DNA from: a virus
Virus record (IMG/VR): IMGVR_UViG_3300037475_000051
Location: 1-36,262 of that record
DNA length: 36,262 bases
Strand: one strand, 5' to 3'
Below are positions 319-33,157 of this stretch, in pieces. The notes beneath the pieces were generated by a model, which searched no databases, had not been told where the DNA came from, and saw only the letters and a list, made by a program, of their open reading frames with translations. The number at the start of each line of letters is the position of its first letter. The first letter of the stretch is position 1. A program made the translations under genes and the position numbers.

Positions 319-346
319 ATAATACAATATGTATTAAAGAAGTCAA
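319..346 (-). promoter_or_regulatory. Leftward early promoter PL
   Basis: On the minus strand a -35 TTGACT (346-341) and a -10 TATTAT (324-319) are separated by 16 bp, close to sigma-70 consensus. A repressor operator (321-335) lies in the spacer and overlaps the -10. The predicted start near 312 leaves a leader of about 30 nt before the gene at 281. The arrangement matches PR and PRM on the far side of the immunity region. Confidence 0.8.
321..335. promoter_or_regulatory. Operator OL1 (repressor site)
   Basis: AATACAATATGTATT is an inverted repeat of AATAC and GTATT around a 5-bp centre. It is the exact reverse complement of the operator at 2947-2961 and differs by one base from that at 2897-2911. 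It sits inside PL. Confidence 0.8.
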
Positions 347-522: not shown

Positions 523-726
523 ATGGCGAAGTTAACTGCTGCGAAGAGAAAGAAGATTCCTAAGTCAGAATTTGGAATGCCAGGTGATAAGAAATATCCT
601 ATGCCAGATAAGGCTCACGCCGTGAATGCAAAAGCTAGAGCTACTCAGATGGTTAAGAAGGGTAAGTTGTCAGCTGGGACGGCTGCGAAGATTAAAGCTA
701 AGGCTAATAAGGTTTTGGGTAAATAG
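523..726 (+). CDS. Small basic DUF6582-like phage protein
   Basis: A 67-residue Lys/Ala-rich protein starting MAKLTAAKRKKIPKSEFG, with a GDKKYPMPDK segment and a MVKKGKLS stretch. This pattern is common in small phage and bacterial proteins annotated as DUF6582-like. It has no membrane segment and looks like a nucleic-acid-binding or structural peptide, but its function is unknown. The ribosome site AAGGTG is 7-12 nt before the ATG. It is the only rightward gene in the immunity region, has its own TATAAT promoter and converges on the 765-2230 genes. That placement suggests a separately controlled (moron-type) gene. Confidence 0.8.
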   Translation: MAKLTAAKRKKIPKSEFGMPGDKKYPMPDKAHAVNAKARATQMVKKGKLSAGTAAKIKAKANKVLGK

Positions 727-764: not shown

Positions 765-944
765 TTATTTAAGTGCGTGAATTATTGCTGCAATCACGGC
801 AGAAACTGTAAATATATTGGTTAATATAATTAATGACCATGCTAATTTTATCAAATTATTGAACTTTTTTTCTTTTTGATTTTCAATATATTTTTCAATG
901 CTATTCAGCCTTTGATCTATAGATCCAAAATTATGATAACTCAT
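765..944 (-). CDS. Small single-pass membrane protein, last gene of repressor operon
   Basis: I place the start at ATG 944, two bases after the stop of the preceding gene and behind an AAGAA ribosome-like site; an in-frame start at 1010 would lie inside that gene. The 59-residue product begins MSYHNFGSIDQRLNSIEKYI. A short coiled-coil-like N-terminal half is followed by one C-terminal hydrophobic helix (about residues 31-55) rich in Ile, Leu and Ala. Its make-up resembles the larger protein encoded just upstream (946-1326), so the two may form a membrane pair. Function unknown. Confidence 0.65.
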   Translation of the reverse strand: MSYHNFGSIDQRLNSIEKYIENQKEKKFNNLIKLAWSLIILTNIFTVSAVIAAIIHALK

Positions 945-945
945 A

Positions 946-1326
946 TTATTTCTTAAATTCTTGTGATTGTTGCGATGGCAGTTTATATGCTGATTGAACG
1001 AAATTAGCAAGGAATGGCATCAATACTACTGCAAGCAATAAGCCGATAGCTAATTTAGATATCCATGAATGAATAGACTTCATTTCTGCATGTATTAAGA
1101 GATTAGTTTGGTTAATTTTGTCGTCCATTTTTTCTAGCTTTGTTTTTATTTCATGGACGTCTCGTTTTATATATTCAACATCTGACTCTAGGCGCCCAAG
1201 ACGTTCTCCGTCATCTCCGCCGCTGCCACCTGTAGTTTTTTTGTGGATAGTTTCTTTTTTCTTTTCAGTCATATCTGTACCATGAAGTTTATGTGAATTG
1301 AAATCTACAAGCTTAATGCGTTGCAT
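946..1326 (-). CDS. Membrane-anchored coiled-coil protein (phage family with Gly/Asp-rich N-terminus)
   Basis: The 126-residue product has a Lys-rich N-terminus, a GGSGGDDGERLGRLE segment, a coiled coil (VEYIKRDVHEIKTKLEKMDDK) and one C-terminal hydrophobic helix (about residues 92-112). Proteins with this LGRLESDVEYIKRDV pattern are frequent in prophages, sometimes noted as XhlA-like or membrane hypothetical proteins. The start at 1326 has an AAGGAA site; a second Met at 1272 lacks one. It overlaps the stop of the upstream gene by 14 nt, so translation is probably coupled. It sits in the rex position behind the repressor, so expression in the lysogen is likely. Confidence 0.75.
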   Translation of the reverse strand: MQRIKLVDFNSHKLHGTDMTEKKKETIHKKTTGGSGGDDGERLGRLESDVEYIKRDVHEIKTKLEKMDDKINQTNLLIHAEMKSIHSWISKLAIGLLLAVVLMPFLANFVQSAYKLPSQQSQEFKK

Positions 1327-1606
1327 GTATATTCCTTTTCTTATTATACCAGGTATGAACTACTTCTGCTGCAAAATGCCACATATACCCACAGTTATCG
1401 CAGATAAGTGTTATTACTGGATAACCTAGACCTAGACTTTTAGAGTTAGAATCGCCCACAGGATAGAAGAAATATGTTTCAGGAACAGAGTCTGGAACTA
1501 TTCCATAATGGGCGTTATTGCATGCGGGACACTTCTTATCGAATCCTTTTTCACGAAGGAATTCTTCGAAGTCTTTTTTTGTGAATGTGTAGGATGAGGT
1601 TGTCAT
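1313..1606 (-). CDS. Zinc-ribbon hypothetical protein
   Basis: A 97-residue soluble protein with two CxxC pairs: CPAC near residue 27 and CDNC near residue 69. They could form one zinc ribbon with a long insertion between the knuckles. The C-terminal part ends in GYMWHFAAEVVHTWYNKKR. Similar small phage proteins occur but I cannot name a family. The ATG at 1606 follows the preceding stop by a few bases and has no clear ribosome site, so translation is probably coupled to the secreted protein upstream. Part of the repressor operon. Confidence 0.7.
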   Translation of the reverse strand: MTTSSYTFTKKDFEEFLREKGFDKKCPACNNAHYGIVPDSVPETYFFYPVGDSNSKSLGLGYPVITLICDNCGYMWHFAAEVVHTWYNKKRNIHATH

Positions 1607-1609
1607 AGG

Positions 1610-2002
1610 TTAGTATTTATGAATAGGGTTTTTAACAAAAGCAAACTGAGCAAGAGTGAAAAGCGCTTGTTGTTCTAAAAATTTTTCTTTATCTACATAA
1701 CTCTTAAATGAATTTCTTTTGTCTCTGATCCAAGCAACATATAAGTCAACAACTTCAGTGTAAGTTCTTCCTGCTATGTCTGGATTGAAATTGAAGTCTC
1801 GCGCTTTAGAATCTTTATTGTCGTTTATATCAATTGTTATTCCTGCGCTATCCATATACCCAGCTATATATGCAACACAAATATAATAACCAACGTCAGA
1901 TTTTTTATCACACATCTGGAATAGTTGTTTTGTGGTATATGAAGCAGCATATACAGAAGATATTAAAAAAAATGTTATACATAATATGATTATTTTTTTC
2001 AT
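1610..2002 (-). CDS. Secreted Rap1a/Tai-like immunity-type protein
   Basis: A 130-residue protein with a clear signal peptide (MKKIIILCITFFLISSVYA), so it should act in the periplasm. The mature part shows the Rap1a/Tai pattern: TKQLFQMC, then YICVAYIAGYMD, a loop, YTEVVDLYVAW and a final Ala/Leu/Phe helix; the usual last Cys is absent. Rap1a/Tai proteins neutralise peptidoglycan amidase effectors of type VI secretion. Here the gene lies in the lysogenic operon behind the repressor with a GGAAGAAA site. I infer a cell-wall or envelope protection role in the lysogen, for example against rival amidases or the phage's own wall enzymes. The family call is by pattern only. Confidence 0.6.
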   Translation of the reverse strand: MKKIIILCITFFLISSVYAASYTTKQLFQMCDKKSDVGYYICVAYIAGYMDSAGITIDINDNKDSKARDFNFNPDIAGRTYTEVVDLYVAWIRDKRNSFKSYVDKEKFLEQQALFTLAQFAFVKNPIHKY

Positions 2003-2017
2003 TTTCTTCCTATTATA

Positions 2018-2230
2018 TTATCTTTTAATTCGATCAATGCGATATTGCAATTCCCGTATTTCATTTTTTATTTCTTCTAATTTTTTATGAGTTGCCATAT
2101 CTATTGACGTATACACACCCAAATAAAATCCTCCAAATACTAGCGATAAACATATCCATGGGTATATCCATTTAATAAATTCCCATATATAGTCTCCTGA
2201 TAATATTATGTATGCAGATGCATCAGTCAT
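2018..2230 (-). CDS. Small membrane protein co-translated with the repressor
   Basis: I place the start at ATG 2230, 9 nt after AGG within the end of the repressor gene; the two genes overlap by 8 nt. The 70-residue product starts MTDASAYIILSGDYIWEF, has one or two hydrophobic segments (about residues 15-40, rich in Trp, Leu and Phe) and ends in a charged coiled coil (KKLEEIKNEIRELQYRIDRI). The overlap ties its expression to the repressor, as for lambda rexA behind cI. It resembles no Rex sequence that I can recognise. Confidence 0.7.
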   Translation of the reverse strand: MTDASAYIILSGDYIWEFIKWIYPWICLSLVFGGFYLGVYTSIDMATHKKLEEIKNEIRELQYRIDRIKR

Positions 2231-2888
2231 ATTCACTGAACCTTTTTATTATTACAGCTAATATATCTTTGTATTCAATTTCAATAATTGGATATTGTGG
2301 ATTAAGAGCTTTTAAAAGATGCTTCGATCCATCTTCAATATATTGCCTAACAATTCTAGAACCTTGAGAAAAAGCCAAAACAGAATCTCCGCTTTTAGCT
2401 TTTTTATCAAAATCTATAATCAAATAATCACCTTCTAATATCATCCTTGGATGAGGGTACGCAGGTAGCATCGCATCTATATTTACAGCTTTTACTGCCG
2501 CTACACGATGACCTAATAGCTCTTTATCTTTTATCTCCATCTTCAATATCTCCTGGTTTTTAACTTTGTTTTTTAAAACTTGGTCTATAGTTTCCTGGAG
2601 GTTCTCTGAAGATGCGGTAATTTCTTCCCATTGGAGGATGGGGATAAATTTTATATTTACAGGAACTTCCTTGTCTTCTACGGTGTTTGTGACGCCGTAT
2701 AAAATCCATATTGGAGAAACATTTAGAGCATTAGCTATATCGTCTATCATCTCTATAGTAGGTTGCCGGTCAGATCTCAAGTAATGACCAATGCTTCCTT
2801 GTGTAACGCCAATAGCAGCGGCTAGCGCATCTTGGGTAAACCCACGCTGCTTCATCACTTCTTTCAATCGGTCTCGCCAACTAATCAT
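2223..2888 (-). CDS. cI: CI-type phage repressor with S24 fold but no catalytic dyad
   Basis: A 221-residue repressor. Residues 6-60 form an HTH (FTQDALAAAIGVTQGSIGHYL); residues 125-221 are a LexA/CI S24 domain with GDYLIID and the CI-typical ALNPQYP. The catalytic Ser of the DSM motif is Ala (IDAMLP, Ala139) and the Lys of the VKR/FKK motif is Arg (IVRQY, Arg181), so autocleavage should not occur. I place the start at ATG 2888: the PRM -10 lies at 2895-2900, so the transcript begins at or beside the ATG, apparently leaderless as for lambda cI from PRM. Operators at 2897-2961 and 321-360 are its likely targets. The upstream in-frame ATG at 2945 lies inside PR. Confidence 0.9.
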   Translation of the reverse strand: MISWRDRLKEVMKQRGFTQDALAAAIGVTQGSIGHYLRSDRQPTIEMIDDIANALNVSPIWILYGVTNTVEDKEVPVNIKFIPILQWEEITASSENLQETIDQVLKNKVKNQEILKMEIKDKELLGHRVAAVKAVNIDAMLPAYPHPRMILEGDYLIIDFDKKAKSGDSVLAFSQGSRIVRQYIEDGSKHLLKALNPQYPIIEIEYKDILAVIIKRFSEYD

Positions 2889-2894
2889 GTGCAA

Positions 2895-2922
2895 ATAATA
2901 CAATATGTATGAAATAAGACAA
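2895..2922 (-). promoter_or_regulatory. Repressor maintenance promoter PRM
   Basis: On the minus strand, -35 TTGTCT (2922-2917) and -10 TATTAT (2900-2895) are separated by 16 bp. The operator at 2897-2911 covers the -10. The central weak operator is centred at 2929, about 41 bp upstream of the predicted start (~2888), the spacing at which lambda CI bound to OR2 activates PRM. Confidence 0.7.
2897..2911. promoter_or_regulatory. Operator OR3-like, over PRM
   Basis: AATACAATATGTATG matches OL1 at 14 of 15 positions and overlaps the PRM -10. Occupancy should repress the repressor gene. The 16-base string ATACATATTGTATTAT is identical at PL, PR and PRM on the transcribed strand. Confidence 0.8.
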
Positions 2923-2936
2923 TCAACAAATGTATT
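2922..2936. promoter_or_regulatory. Probable weak central operator OR2-like
   Basis: One perfect half-site GTATT (2932-2936) is paired with a degenerate left half. Its centre (2929) is exactly 25 bp from both neighbouring operators (2904 and 2954). It lies next to the PRM -35. Confidence 0.5.
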
Positions 2937-2963
2937 GCTGGGCATAAATACATATTGTATTAT
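2935..2963 (+). promoter_or_regulatory. Rightward early promoter PR
   Basis: -35 TTGCTG (2935-2940), 17-bp spacer, -10 TATTAT (2958-2963). The operator at 2947-2961 fills the spacer and overlaps the -10 exactly as at PL. The predicted start is near 2970, about 24 nt before the Cro-like gene. Confidence 0.75.
2947..2961. promoter_or_regulatory. Operator OR1-like, over PR
   Basis: AATACATATTGTATT is a perfect AATAC/GTATT dyad and the exact reverse complement of OL1. It occludes PR. Confidence 0.8.
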
Positions 2964-2993: not shown

Positions 2994-3215
2994 ATGGACT
3001 TAAAAATGTACATAAATAGCTTCTCAGCTGAAGAGAGGTTATTAGTTATTGATTATCTATTAAAAAATCTAAAGATTCAGAAATCTTCTTTGGGTCATTG
3101 GATGTACGGACATCGAAATCCATCTCCTAAGCATGCATTACAAATAGAAAAGCTTACCATTGGCGCGGTAACTAGATATGACTTGCGTCCTGATATTTAT
3201 CAGAGGGATGGTTAG
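2994..3215 (+). CDS. Cro-position regulator of the YdaS/Cro type
   Basis: A 73-residue protein whose end, IEKLTIGAVTRYDLRPDIY, is the hallmark of YdaS-like HTH proteins (a Cro/antitoxin-type family in lambdoid prophages). A segment around SSLGHWMYGHRNPSPKHA would be the recognition part. I chose ATG 2994 because the open frame upstream runs through the PR promoter; ATG 3006 is possible and neither has a strong ribosome site. As first gene from PR and divergent from the repressor, it should act as Cro, competing for the OR/OL sites or turning PRM down. Confidence 0.8.
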   Translation: MDLKMYINSFSAEERLLVIDYLLKNLKIQKSSLGHWMYGHRNPSPKHALQIEKLTIGAVTRYDLRPDIYQRDG

Positions 3216-3217
3216 TT

Positions 3218-4102
3218 ATGGATGTGATCGAAGCATTTAGTGATAAACCAATAGCTTTCCATGCCTCTCTATCAAAAAAACTCAAGATAGGAGCTATTGC
3301 CTCTTTATTTTTATGCCAAGCATTGTATTGGACAAAGGTAAAAGAAAAAGTAGGCGAGAGTTGGTTTTATAAGTCAGCTGTAGACTGGGAAGAAGAAACT
3401 TCCTTAACTCAACAAGAACAAAGAACCGCTAGAAAAAAGCTAAAGGAACTTGGGATATTAGAAGAGGCAGTAAAAGGCATTCCTCCAACTGTATATTATA
3501 AGATAAACAAAGATCAGCTAAGAAAACTTCTATCTAACGAATCTAACGATGTGCAACAAATCAATTGTCCAGATTCAACAAATCAATTTGTTGGTAGCAA
3601 CAAATCAATTGTTGAAATTCAACAAATTGATTCTTCAAATTCAACAAATCTATATAAAGAACATAGATTACATACAGAGATTACTACACAGAATACAACA
3701 GAGAAAAAAATATATAAAAAAGATTTGTCATCTGACGTTATTTCAATCTTCGAACACTGGAAACAAACCCTCCAGCATCCAAACTCCGTTCTCGATGACA
3801 AACGAAAAAAGAAAATCAAAGAACGCTTAGCGGAAGGCTACACAGTCGAGCAACTGAAGAACGTCATCAACGGATGCAAATGCTCTGCTTATCACATGGG
3901 CCATAACGAAGGCGGCAAAATATATGATTCCATCGACTTACTATTTCGCGATGCCGAACACGTAGATAGATTTATTTCCTACTTTGAAAAACCTCCCATT
4001 CCCAAGACCAAAGGCACTCTGGAGTCTGAAAGATTCCATATGGAGTTCTATGGCGTCCAGGAATCGCAAAATATAGGCAAAGGAGACACTTTCAGACACT
4101 AA
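3218..4102 (+). CDS. O-like replication initiator with origin iterons inside the gene
   Basis: A 294-residue protein. Residues 1-105 look like a winged-helix replisome-organiser domain (AFHASLSKKLKIGAIASLFL and LTQQEQRTARKKLKELGILEE). Residues 110-160 are a low-complexity Asn/Ser/Thr/Gln linker; the C-terminal part (about 170-270: ISIFEHWKQTL, KERLAEGYTVEQLKNVINGCK) resembles the helicase-loader-binding region of phage initiators. The linker is encoded by five 22-bp-spaced iterons (3554-3655), as lambda O contains ori. It should bind the iterons and recruit the host helicase with the next protein. GAGGGA precedes the ATG, 2 bases after the Cro-like gene. Confidence 0.8.
   Translation: MDVIEAFSDKPIAFHASLSKKLKIGAIASLFLCQALYWTKVKEKVGESWFYKSAVDWEEETSLTQQEQRTARKKLKELGILEEAVKGIPPTVYYKINKDQLRKLLSNESNDVQQINCPDSTNQFVGSNKSIVEIQQIDSSNSTNLYKEHRLHTEITTQNTTEKKIYKKDLSSDVISIFEHWKQTLQHPNSVLDDKRKKKIKERLAEGYTVEQLKNVINGCKCSAYHMGHNEGGKIYDSIDLLFRDAEHVDRFISYFEKPPIPKTKGTLESERFHMEFYGVQESQNIGKGDTFRH
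3554..3655 (+). repeat. Replication origin iterons (five copies, 22-bp spacing)
   Basis: Five directly repeated units start at 3554, 3576, 3598, 3620 and 3642, each exactly 22 bp apart. The 8-mer CAACAAAT is invariant; the first three copies share CAACAAATCAATT. The second unit has near-dyad symmetry (CAACAAAT...ATTTGTTG). Since 22 is not a multiple of three, the protein does not repeat, so the DNA itself is the repeated object. An AT-rich stretch follows (about 3651-3735), as a DNA-unwinding region would. Confidence 0.85.
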
Positions 4103-31724: not shown

Positions 31725-31928
31725 TTAATTCATCCCCATATGCAAGTACTTTATAGCTTCCTTTTCTAAATATTTAGCCATCTTATAGGCGCACTTTGTT
31801 CCGAATAATATTAATAATTCTCTTACATCTTCATCAACGCATGCTTCTTTCCAATCATGGTAAATTTCTTCAAATTCTTTTTCTGCTATTTTTTTATAAG
31901 TATCAAAAGTTAATAATAATTCGCTCAT
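31725..31928 (-). CDS. Small hypothetical protein after the integrase
   Basis: A 67-residue acidic helical protein (MSELLLTFDTYKKIAEKEFEEIYHDWKEA...). Its ATG overlaps the integrase stop (ATGA), so it is probably translated with it. No domain recognised. Its position between int and attP means it may be expressed only with int. Confidence 0.6.
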   Translation of the reverse strand: MSELLLTFDTYKKIAEKEFEEIYHDWKEACVDEDVRELLILFGTKCAYKMAKYLEKEAIKYLHMGMN

Positions 31929-32926
31929 TTTGTTACCCCTTTAACTATATTAACGCCATCTATATATCTGGCAGTGGTTGTCTGCGAAGTATGCCCCAAT
32001 AACTTTCTAGCATCTTCACGGCTATACATTTTCTCAATGTCTGTAGCTGACTTATGCCTTATGTCTCTAAACTGAAACGGTTCTTTTAATATTCCTTTTT
32101 CAACGCACTTTTTCATGTGTCGTTTCCACATAGTGGTAAATCCTTCAGGAGTGTATGGCTGTCCAACACGATTACACAGGAGATAATCTAGATGAGATAT
32201 CTTGTATTTGTTCATTTGCGAGAGCTCAGTAACTAATTTCTTTAATGGCTCAGACCACTCGACAATCTTTCCTTTAGCGCCTTTCTTTGTCTTGGTTATA
32301 TCTACGTATAGACCTTCGTCACGAATATTTGAGCGCTTAAGTTTTAAAACTTCAGTGGGTCGAAGGCCCATCATATAAGTTAAATTCATTGCATGTTTAA
32401 TTGGATAAGTTGCCTCTGTCATCACTGCTAAAAATTCTTCATCTGTTACATTTCTTGAGCGTTTATTTTCGCTGAATTTTTTAACTCCTGTGCATGGATT
32501 TAGCTTCACGCTTCCCCATCTTATTGCATAGCTAAATACATGGCTGAGGAGGGCGAGCTCTCTGTTAGCTGAAATCTTTGCGGTTTTTCCTCTCATGTCT
32601 AGGTATCTATAAATATCTACCGCTGAAACATCGGTTGGGATCATGTTTCCAAAATATGCGCATAGAAATTTTGACTGTATGAGATTCGCTTTAAGACTTG
32701 ACTCTGATTTTTGCGGGGCTATTTCTTTCATGTATCTGTCAAATAGAGAGCTTACAGTTTTTAACTCATAATTCGTTAGTTCAAGAGTGGCTAAAGTTGA
32801 ATACATTTCAGACATTGTTTTGCCAAGCCTTATCCACTTTCCTTCGCGCGTTAAGAGGCGATAAGCATTTTTTTTAACATAAACTCGCATTGGTAGGTGT
32901 TTATTAGTTTTGCGTTTTCTTGGCAT
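31925..32926 (-). CDS. int: Tyrosine-recombinase integrase
   Basis: A 333-residue integrase. The N-terminal arm-binding region (basic, MPRKRKTNKHLPMRVYVKK) is followed by a core-binding SAM-like domain (about 55-140) and the catalytic domain: Arg189 (GLRPTEV), a beta-hairpin Lys near 214, the RDIRHKSATD box (Arg290, with Arg instead of the usual His at 287), His312 (LLGHTS) and Tyr321 (ARYIDG). The Arg variant of the HxxR box is seen in many phage integrases. It should recombine attP (31550) with a host tRNA-Lys gene. Confidence 0.95.
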   Translation of the reverse strand: MPRKRKTNKHLPMRVYVKKNAYRLLTREGKWIRLGKTMSEMYSTLATLELTNYELKTVSSLFDRYMKEIAPQKSESSLKANLIQSKFLCAYFGNMIPTDVSAVDIYRYLDMRGKTAKISANRELALLSHVFSYAIRWGSVKLNPCTGVKKFSENKRSRNVTDEEFLAVMTEATYPIKHAMNLTYMMGLRPTEVLKLKRSNIRDEGLYVDITKTKKGAKGKIVEWSEPLKKLVTELSQMNKYKISHLDYLLCNRVGQPYTPEGFTTMWKRHMKKCVEKGILKEPFQFRDIRHKSATDIEKMYSREDARKLLGHTSQTTTARYIDGVNIVKGVTK

Positions 32927-32929
32927 TGT

Positions 32930-33157
32930 TTAGCTCATCATCTTCATTAGAGCCATTGCATCAGGCTGAGTTTTTCTAGAGTAGGTATGGCCTAAGAAAT
33001 TAAGTTTCTGCTCTATGTGAGAGCGGAGCATTACTATTGAGCCATCTACTCTTATATCAAAAGCATATCCGTGCGTTGCCAGCCATTCACGTTGCTTTGA
33101 TATTTGCTTTGAGCCTGTTAGCTCTATTATTTCTTCTTTGCTAATAAATAAACTCAT
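32930..33157 (-). CDS. DUF4224 protein, integrase-associated (possible excisionase-like)
   Basis: A 75-residue protein opening MSLFISKEEIIELTGSKQISKQREWLATHGYAF, the DUF4224 signature: a short winged or HTH-like module almost always encoded just before a phage integrase. A directionality factor is a fair guess but not proven. GGAG precedes the start; the stop of the upstream gene overlaps. Confidence 0.8.
   Translation of the reverse strand: MSLFISKEEIIELTGSKQISKQREWLATHGYAFDIRVDGSIVMLRSHIEQKLNFLGHTYSRKTQPDAMALMKMMS

Follow-up and report, generated by a model that had tools for sequence, protein, structure and literature searches.

The stretch of DNA analysed here (the window) is the viral record IMGVR_UViG_3300037475_000051 over its 36,262 nucleotides. 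Its minus strand encodes, from 2888 to 2223, a CI-like repressor, while many stops interrupt the plus strand there; the coordinates proposed in an earlier sequence-only reading are correct and the strand is minus. The surroundings have the organization of a lambdoid immunity region, with divergent cI and cro, predicted palindromes shared by OR and OL, and then an O-like gene (Table 1). The Cro-position gene has its ATG at 2994 in an ORF that is open from TTG 2955. Inside the O-like gene lie four 22-bp iterons of AACAAATCAATTG type (3553-3655), likely a lambda-type replication origin. A conserved 67-aa basic protein (523-726, plus strand; phrog_16160, E=1.7e-28) is encoded within the immunity region, opposite the repressor operon. 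Among the small genes in rex position are a zinc-ribbon gene (1313-1606) and genes for membrane-type small proteins. A zinc-ribbon gene is also found behind the repressor of another phage, L034 (3130-3399; 26% identity over 70 aa). Both carriers have a YdaS-type Cro, and the gene is possibly a recurring companion of lysogeny.

Table 1. Positions of the repressor gene, its altered residues, predicted operators and other genes in the window
Feature	Position	Strand	Basis
CI-like repressor, 221 aa, N-terminal HTH_3 and C-terminal S24/LexA fold	2223..2888	-	profile and structure matches
Ala139 codon GCG, catalytic Ser column of S24 repressors	2472..2474	-	alignment
Arg181 codon AGG, catalytic Lys column of S24 repressors	2346..2348	-	alignment
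Ile90-Thr91 in place of Ala-Gly cleavage dipeptide	2616..2621	-	alignment
Operator-like palindrome AATACAATATGTATG, OR region	2897..2911	.	motif scan
Possible weak middle operator, half-site TGTATT at 2931-2936	2922..2936	.	putative operator
Operator-like perfect palindrome AATACATATTGTATT, OR region	2947..2961	.	motif scan
Operator-like perfect palindrome AATACAATATGTATT, OL region	321..335	.	motif scan
Cro-position gene, divergent, YdaS-type HTH	2994..3215	+	YdaS_toxin PF15943 E=3.8e-12; phrog_35
O-like replication initiation gene	3218..4102	+	22-bp iterons within the gene, about 3553-3655
Five small genes behind the repressor, rex position	765..2236	-	gene calls, profile searches
Integrase and excisionase	31925..33157	-	profile searches

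The minus strand also carries Sak4, an SSB-like gene, xis and int, and by its content (integrase, excisionase) the phage is temperate. A leftward promoter-like site at 319-346 points over the contig start to leftward genes at the contig end (1-320, 35997-36262). The record thus has the appearance of a whole genome in circular permutation, opened inside the left early region; an end repeat was not found in it. Relatives of the terminase occur in L020-L024, in Pseudoalteromonas phage H6/1 and in Vibrio phage 1.182.O. P22-like podoviruses are among the terminase relatives, and the ones we looked at have no such lysogeny module. A genome scan with the terminase gave no match. Terminase and integrase matches loosely indicate Gammaproteobacteria as the host group. 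In L020-L024 we found neither an S24 protein nor a relative of the repressor, and none is annotated as S24 repressor in H6/1 and 1.182.O; L020-L024, KX257490 and MG592548, with terminases of about 50% identity, show no S24 repressor. This suggests gain and loss of the lysogeny module within the P22-like group.

The repressor frame is intact and full-length, with third-position GC resembling that of neighbouring genes. Pfam recognizes HTH_3 (E=8.9e-15) and Peptidase_S24 (E=1.2e-9), the latter match beginning just past the catalytic Ser region, and the PHROG assignment is to phage repressors (phrog_4, E=2.2e-30). The AlphaFold model (mean pLDDT 83.8) has lambda repressor as its best PDB match (3bdn, E=3.3e-8), followed by LexA and, lower in the list, 186 CI (2fjr). 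The N-terminal HTH and C-terminal S24/LexA fold of autoproteolytic S24 repressors are thus both present. Each domain superposes well singly on solved structures and the global superposition is poor, probably due to a flexible hinge in the model. Where CI has its cleavage loop, a helix is predicted with moderate confidence at residues 94-110. Pattern scans of viral and genome contigs gave no close homologue, and across all searches identity was at most about 33%. Judged by its frame, LexA/lambda-CI fold, lambda-like immunity region and three near-perfect predicted operators, the gene looks functional.

The active site is a different matter. The sequence-only reading had placed Ala139 at the position of the catalytic Ser and Arg181 at that of the catalytic Lys, and it had called for an alignment with S24 repressors. 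When we aligned the protein by L-INS-i to 17 phage repressors that tblastn had retrieved, both residues do fall in the expected columns, and the motifs IVRQY, GDYLIID and ALNPQYP read as quoted. A third loss had been missed: the hinge W-V-x-A-G of most aligned repressors reads W-E-E-I-T here, so that the scissile Ala-Gly is replaced by Ile90-Thr91. Catalytic Ser, catalytic Lys and an Ala-Gly or Cys-Gly hinge site are all absent. We looked for Ser and Lys elsewhere in the active site, and no substitute nucleophile is visible nearby, there being no Ser, Thr or Cys across residues 101-165. The combined loss of nucleophile, general base and scissile site lends strong support to the view that RecA cannot stimulate this repressor to cut itself.

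How rare are such losses? Among 97 aligned relatives the Ser is kept in every one and the Lys in 95. This collection was made partly with a pattern that includes the Lys, and we therefore took a second set that is blind to the active site: IMG/VR proteins with the C-terminal motif K-x-L-N-P-Q-Y-P, 65 when made non-redundant. Here, Ser is present in 65/65 phage repressors and Lys in 63/65, and none lacks both. The two Lys exceptions, L239 (Ile) and L277 (Arg), keep the Ser and have no Ala-Gly site. L239 comes from the same contig as L034 (IMGVR_UViG_2710723603), and L277 sits, by its neighbour genes, in a VP882-like phage; both repressors are probably non-cleavable as well. Two further candidates were set aside: L017, apparently Lys-less, reads LLIKR on inspection and reflects an alignment slip, and L280, which seemed to miss its hinge, is a truncated fragment.

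Of 135 distinct sequences, 122 have an [AC]G site, and both catalytic residues are kept in all 122. Clear dyad losses are confined to sequences without the site (Fisher p about 7e-4 with kinship ignored and L017 scored as intact after inspection). The converse does not hold. In an mEp554-like group (L004, L047, L048, L065, L071, L085) the hinge reads WKDVAN or WKDTVN, with no Ala-Gly or Cys-Gly, yet Ser and Lys are there; either the cut site has moved in these repressors, or they are not cleaved. These counts point to a usable rule: no sequence with the Ala-Gly site had lost its dyad, and every clear dyad loss fell in a sequence lacking that site.

What the repressor presumably recognizes can be read from the DNA around it. 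With at most one mismatch, AATACA-N3-TGTATT occurs three times in 36 kb against 0.28 expected, and none of 100 shuffles reaches three. Two of the sites lie between repressor and cro, one at OL, and there is none elsewhere in the genome. The pattern was first read off the intergenic region before the genome was scanned, which leaves the third copy, distant and perfect, as the independent support. That copy overlaps the leftward promoter-like site (346-319), and an OL half-site lies 25 bp beyond it, at 346. At OR, the half-site TGTATT at 2931-2936 is exactly 25 bp from both neighbouring sites. This half-site spacing is close to the operator spacing of lambda and is consistent with a repressor dimer that binds cooperatively, which in turn could explain why the S24 domain is retained despite its lost chemistry.

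We suggest the following mode of action. In the manner of lambda CI, the protein would bind the AATACA-N3-TGTATT operators at OR and OL through its HTH domain and thereby silence the early operons. Its S24 domain would be retained for dimerisation and for cooperativity at the operators. With Ser, Lys and Ala-Gly lost together, activated RecA would be unable to trigger self-proteolysis; the repressor would maintain lysogeny and stay uncut upon RecA activation. It follows that induction would have to inactivate the repressor by a route other than S24 cleavage; the likeliest is an antirepressor encoded by the phage, like those acting on N15 CB and 186 CI. That the protein serves a temperate, P22-like phage as its working immunity repressor and does not cleave itself we consider quite likely, on the strength of three losses, intact frame, fold, predicted operators and lambda-like layout, all of them features of the sequence. 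Antirepressor-driven induction, which we infer from the fact that N15, 186 and Gifsy use antirepressors, has in our estimate slightly better than an even chance. Searches of the early genes in the window with Pfam and PHROG gave no match to an antirepressor family.

The sequence-only reading had also concluded that the phage is not induced by classical SOS cleavage. This is not the same as not being SOS-induced: SOS induction without cleavage is conceivable, since 186, N15 and Gifsy are SOS-induced through a LexA-controlled antirepressor. Cognate antirepressors of non-cleavable CI-like repressors are usually controlled by LexA and encoded outside the immunity region. A prophage that still responds to SOS indirectly, through such an antirepressor acting on its non-cleavable repressor, is a serious possibility that we place somewhat below even. 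It has the best-studied precedent in Tum of 186, AntC of N15 and GfoA of Gifsy-1 (PMC3121763, PMC7708051, PMC10432266), and the many small uncharacterised genes of the early region leave room for a counterpart. Against it, LexA-type boxes of three types are not above chance in the window, which is weak evidence as the host's box may differ. For CTGT-N8-ACAG there is no exact box and 7 one-mismatch sites compared with 10 expected, and GAAC-N4-GTTC and GTTC-N7-GTTC are no commoner than chance; none of the three need be the box of the host.

We give the same weight to an SOS-independent signal, such as a small protein under a sensor, a quorum signal or a host factor, or else to purely spontaneous induction via repressor dilution and the Cro-like protein. 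The lack of a visible LexA box of any of the three types in the window agrees with this, and small-protein modules of that kind exist in other phages (PMC10432266). Those known sensor-plus-smORF modules, however, come from phages whose repressors are still autoproteolytic, and no such module was recognised here. A bolder version, in which a small early gene represents a new SOS-independent family of antirepressors, evolved alongside an inactive S24 repressor whose peptidase domain survives only as a cooperativity module, we regard as rather unlikely; the additional hinge helix predicted at residues 94-110 could then be a docking site for it.

Decay of the repressor gene, with lysogeny no longer maintained, is very improbable. 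The lost catalytic residues and the lack of a known close homologue speak for it, but the full-length frame, strong HTH_3 match, conserved C-terminal motifs and confident fold speak against it, as do predicted palindromic operators intact at OR and OL and complete int and xis. Least probable of all is that Ala and Arg are sequencing or assembly errors or that other residues perform the cleavage: each codon is just one base off the canonical one (GCG/TCG, AGG/AAG), but three things have been lost separately, one of them the scissile dipeptide, residues 101-165 offer no Ser, Thr or Cys, and two independent mistakes exactly at both catalytic codons are unlikely.

The finding matters in practice. 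In prophage surveys, an S24/LexA-like repressor is often taken as a sign that SOS can induce the prophage. This protein is assigned to the S24-type repressors by Pfam, PHROG and fold searches alike though its whole cleavage apparatus is gone, and domain matches alone can thus mislead. The antirepressor, if found, would reveal what wakes the phage.

Non-cleavable CI-like repressors are already well documented, and the present one is a divergent new example rather than a new principle. With the autoproteolytic S24 group of lambda CI, P22 C2 and LexA it shares the fold, HTH, the LNPQYP and GD..I.D motifs and the layout of divergent cro and predicted operators at OR and OL; those proteins have Ser, Lys and Ala-Gly site, whereas it has none of them. 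By alignment it belongs with CI-like repressors without the Ser/Lys dyad, of N15 CB and 186 CI type. CB of N15 (gene 38), non-proteolytic by experiment (PMC10432266), likewise has a full-length HTH and S24 fold, and in the alignment it carries other residues at the two catalytic positions and lacks the Ala-Gly site. It differs in being only about 19-20% identical and in its replacement residues, and N15 itself is a linear plasmid-prophage whose antirepressor AntC is known and belongs to the SOS regulon. The CI of 186, which is inactivated by the antirepressor protein Tum and not by cleavage (PMC7708051), has the LexA-like C-terminal fold (2fjr) and no Ser/Lys dyad in the alignment; it comes from a P2-like phage with a known LexA-controlled tum, has a shorter hinge and is 17% identical. 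The closest hinge is that of the L034/L239 phage (PLLKGEKI-ENMNKTLD versus PILQWEEI-ENLQETID here). That phage has also lost Ala-Gly and Lys (to Ile) and has a YdaS-type Cro with the zinc-ribbon gene after the repressor; its repressor keeps the Ser and is 29-33% identical. Finally, GfoR, GtgR and GfhR of Gifsy-1, -2 and -3 are non-cleavable lambdoid repressors inactivated by small LexA-controlled antirepressors (PMC3121763), a likeness that extends to our repressor as far as its predicted non-cleavage goes. They are short (136 aa for LT2 Gifsy-1/-2) and without the autocleavage signature motif; unlike them, the repressor described here keeps the whole S24 domain and has lost the catalytic parts alone.
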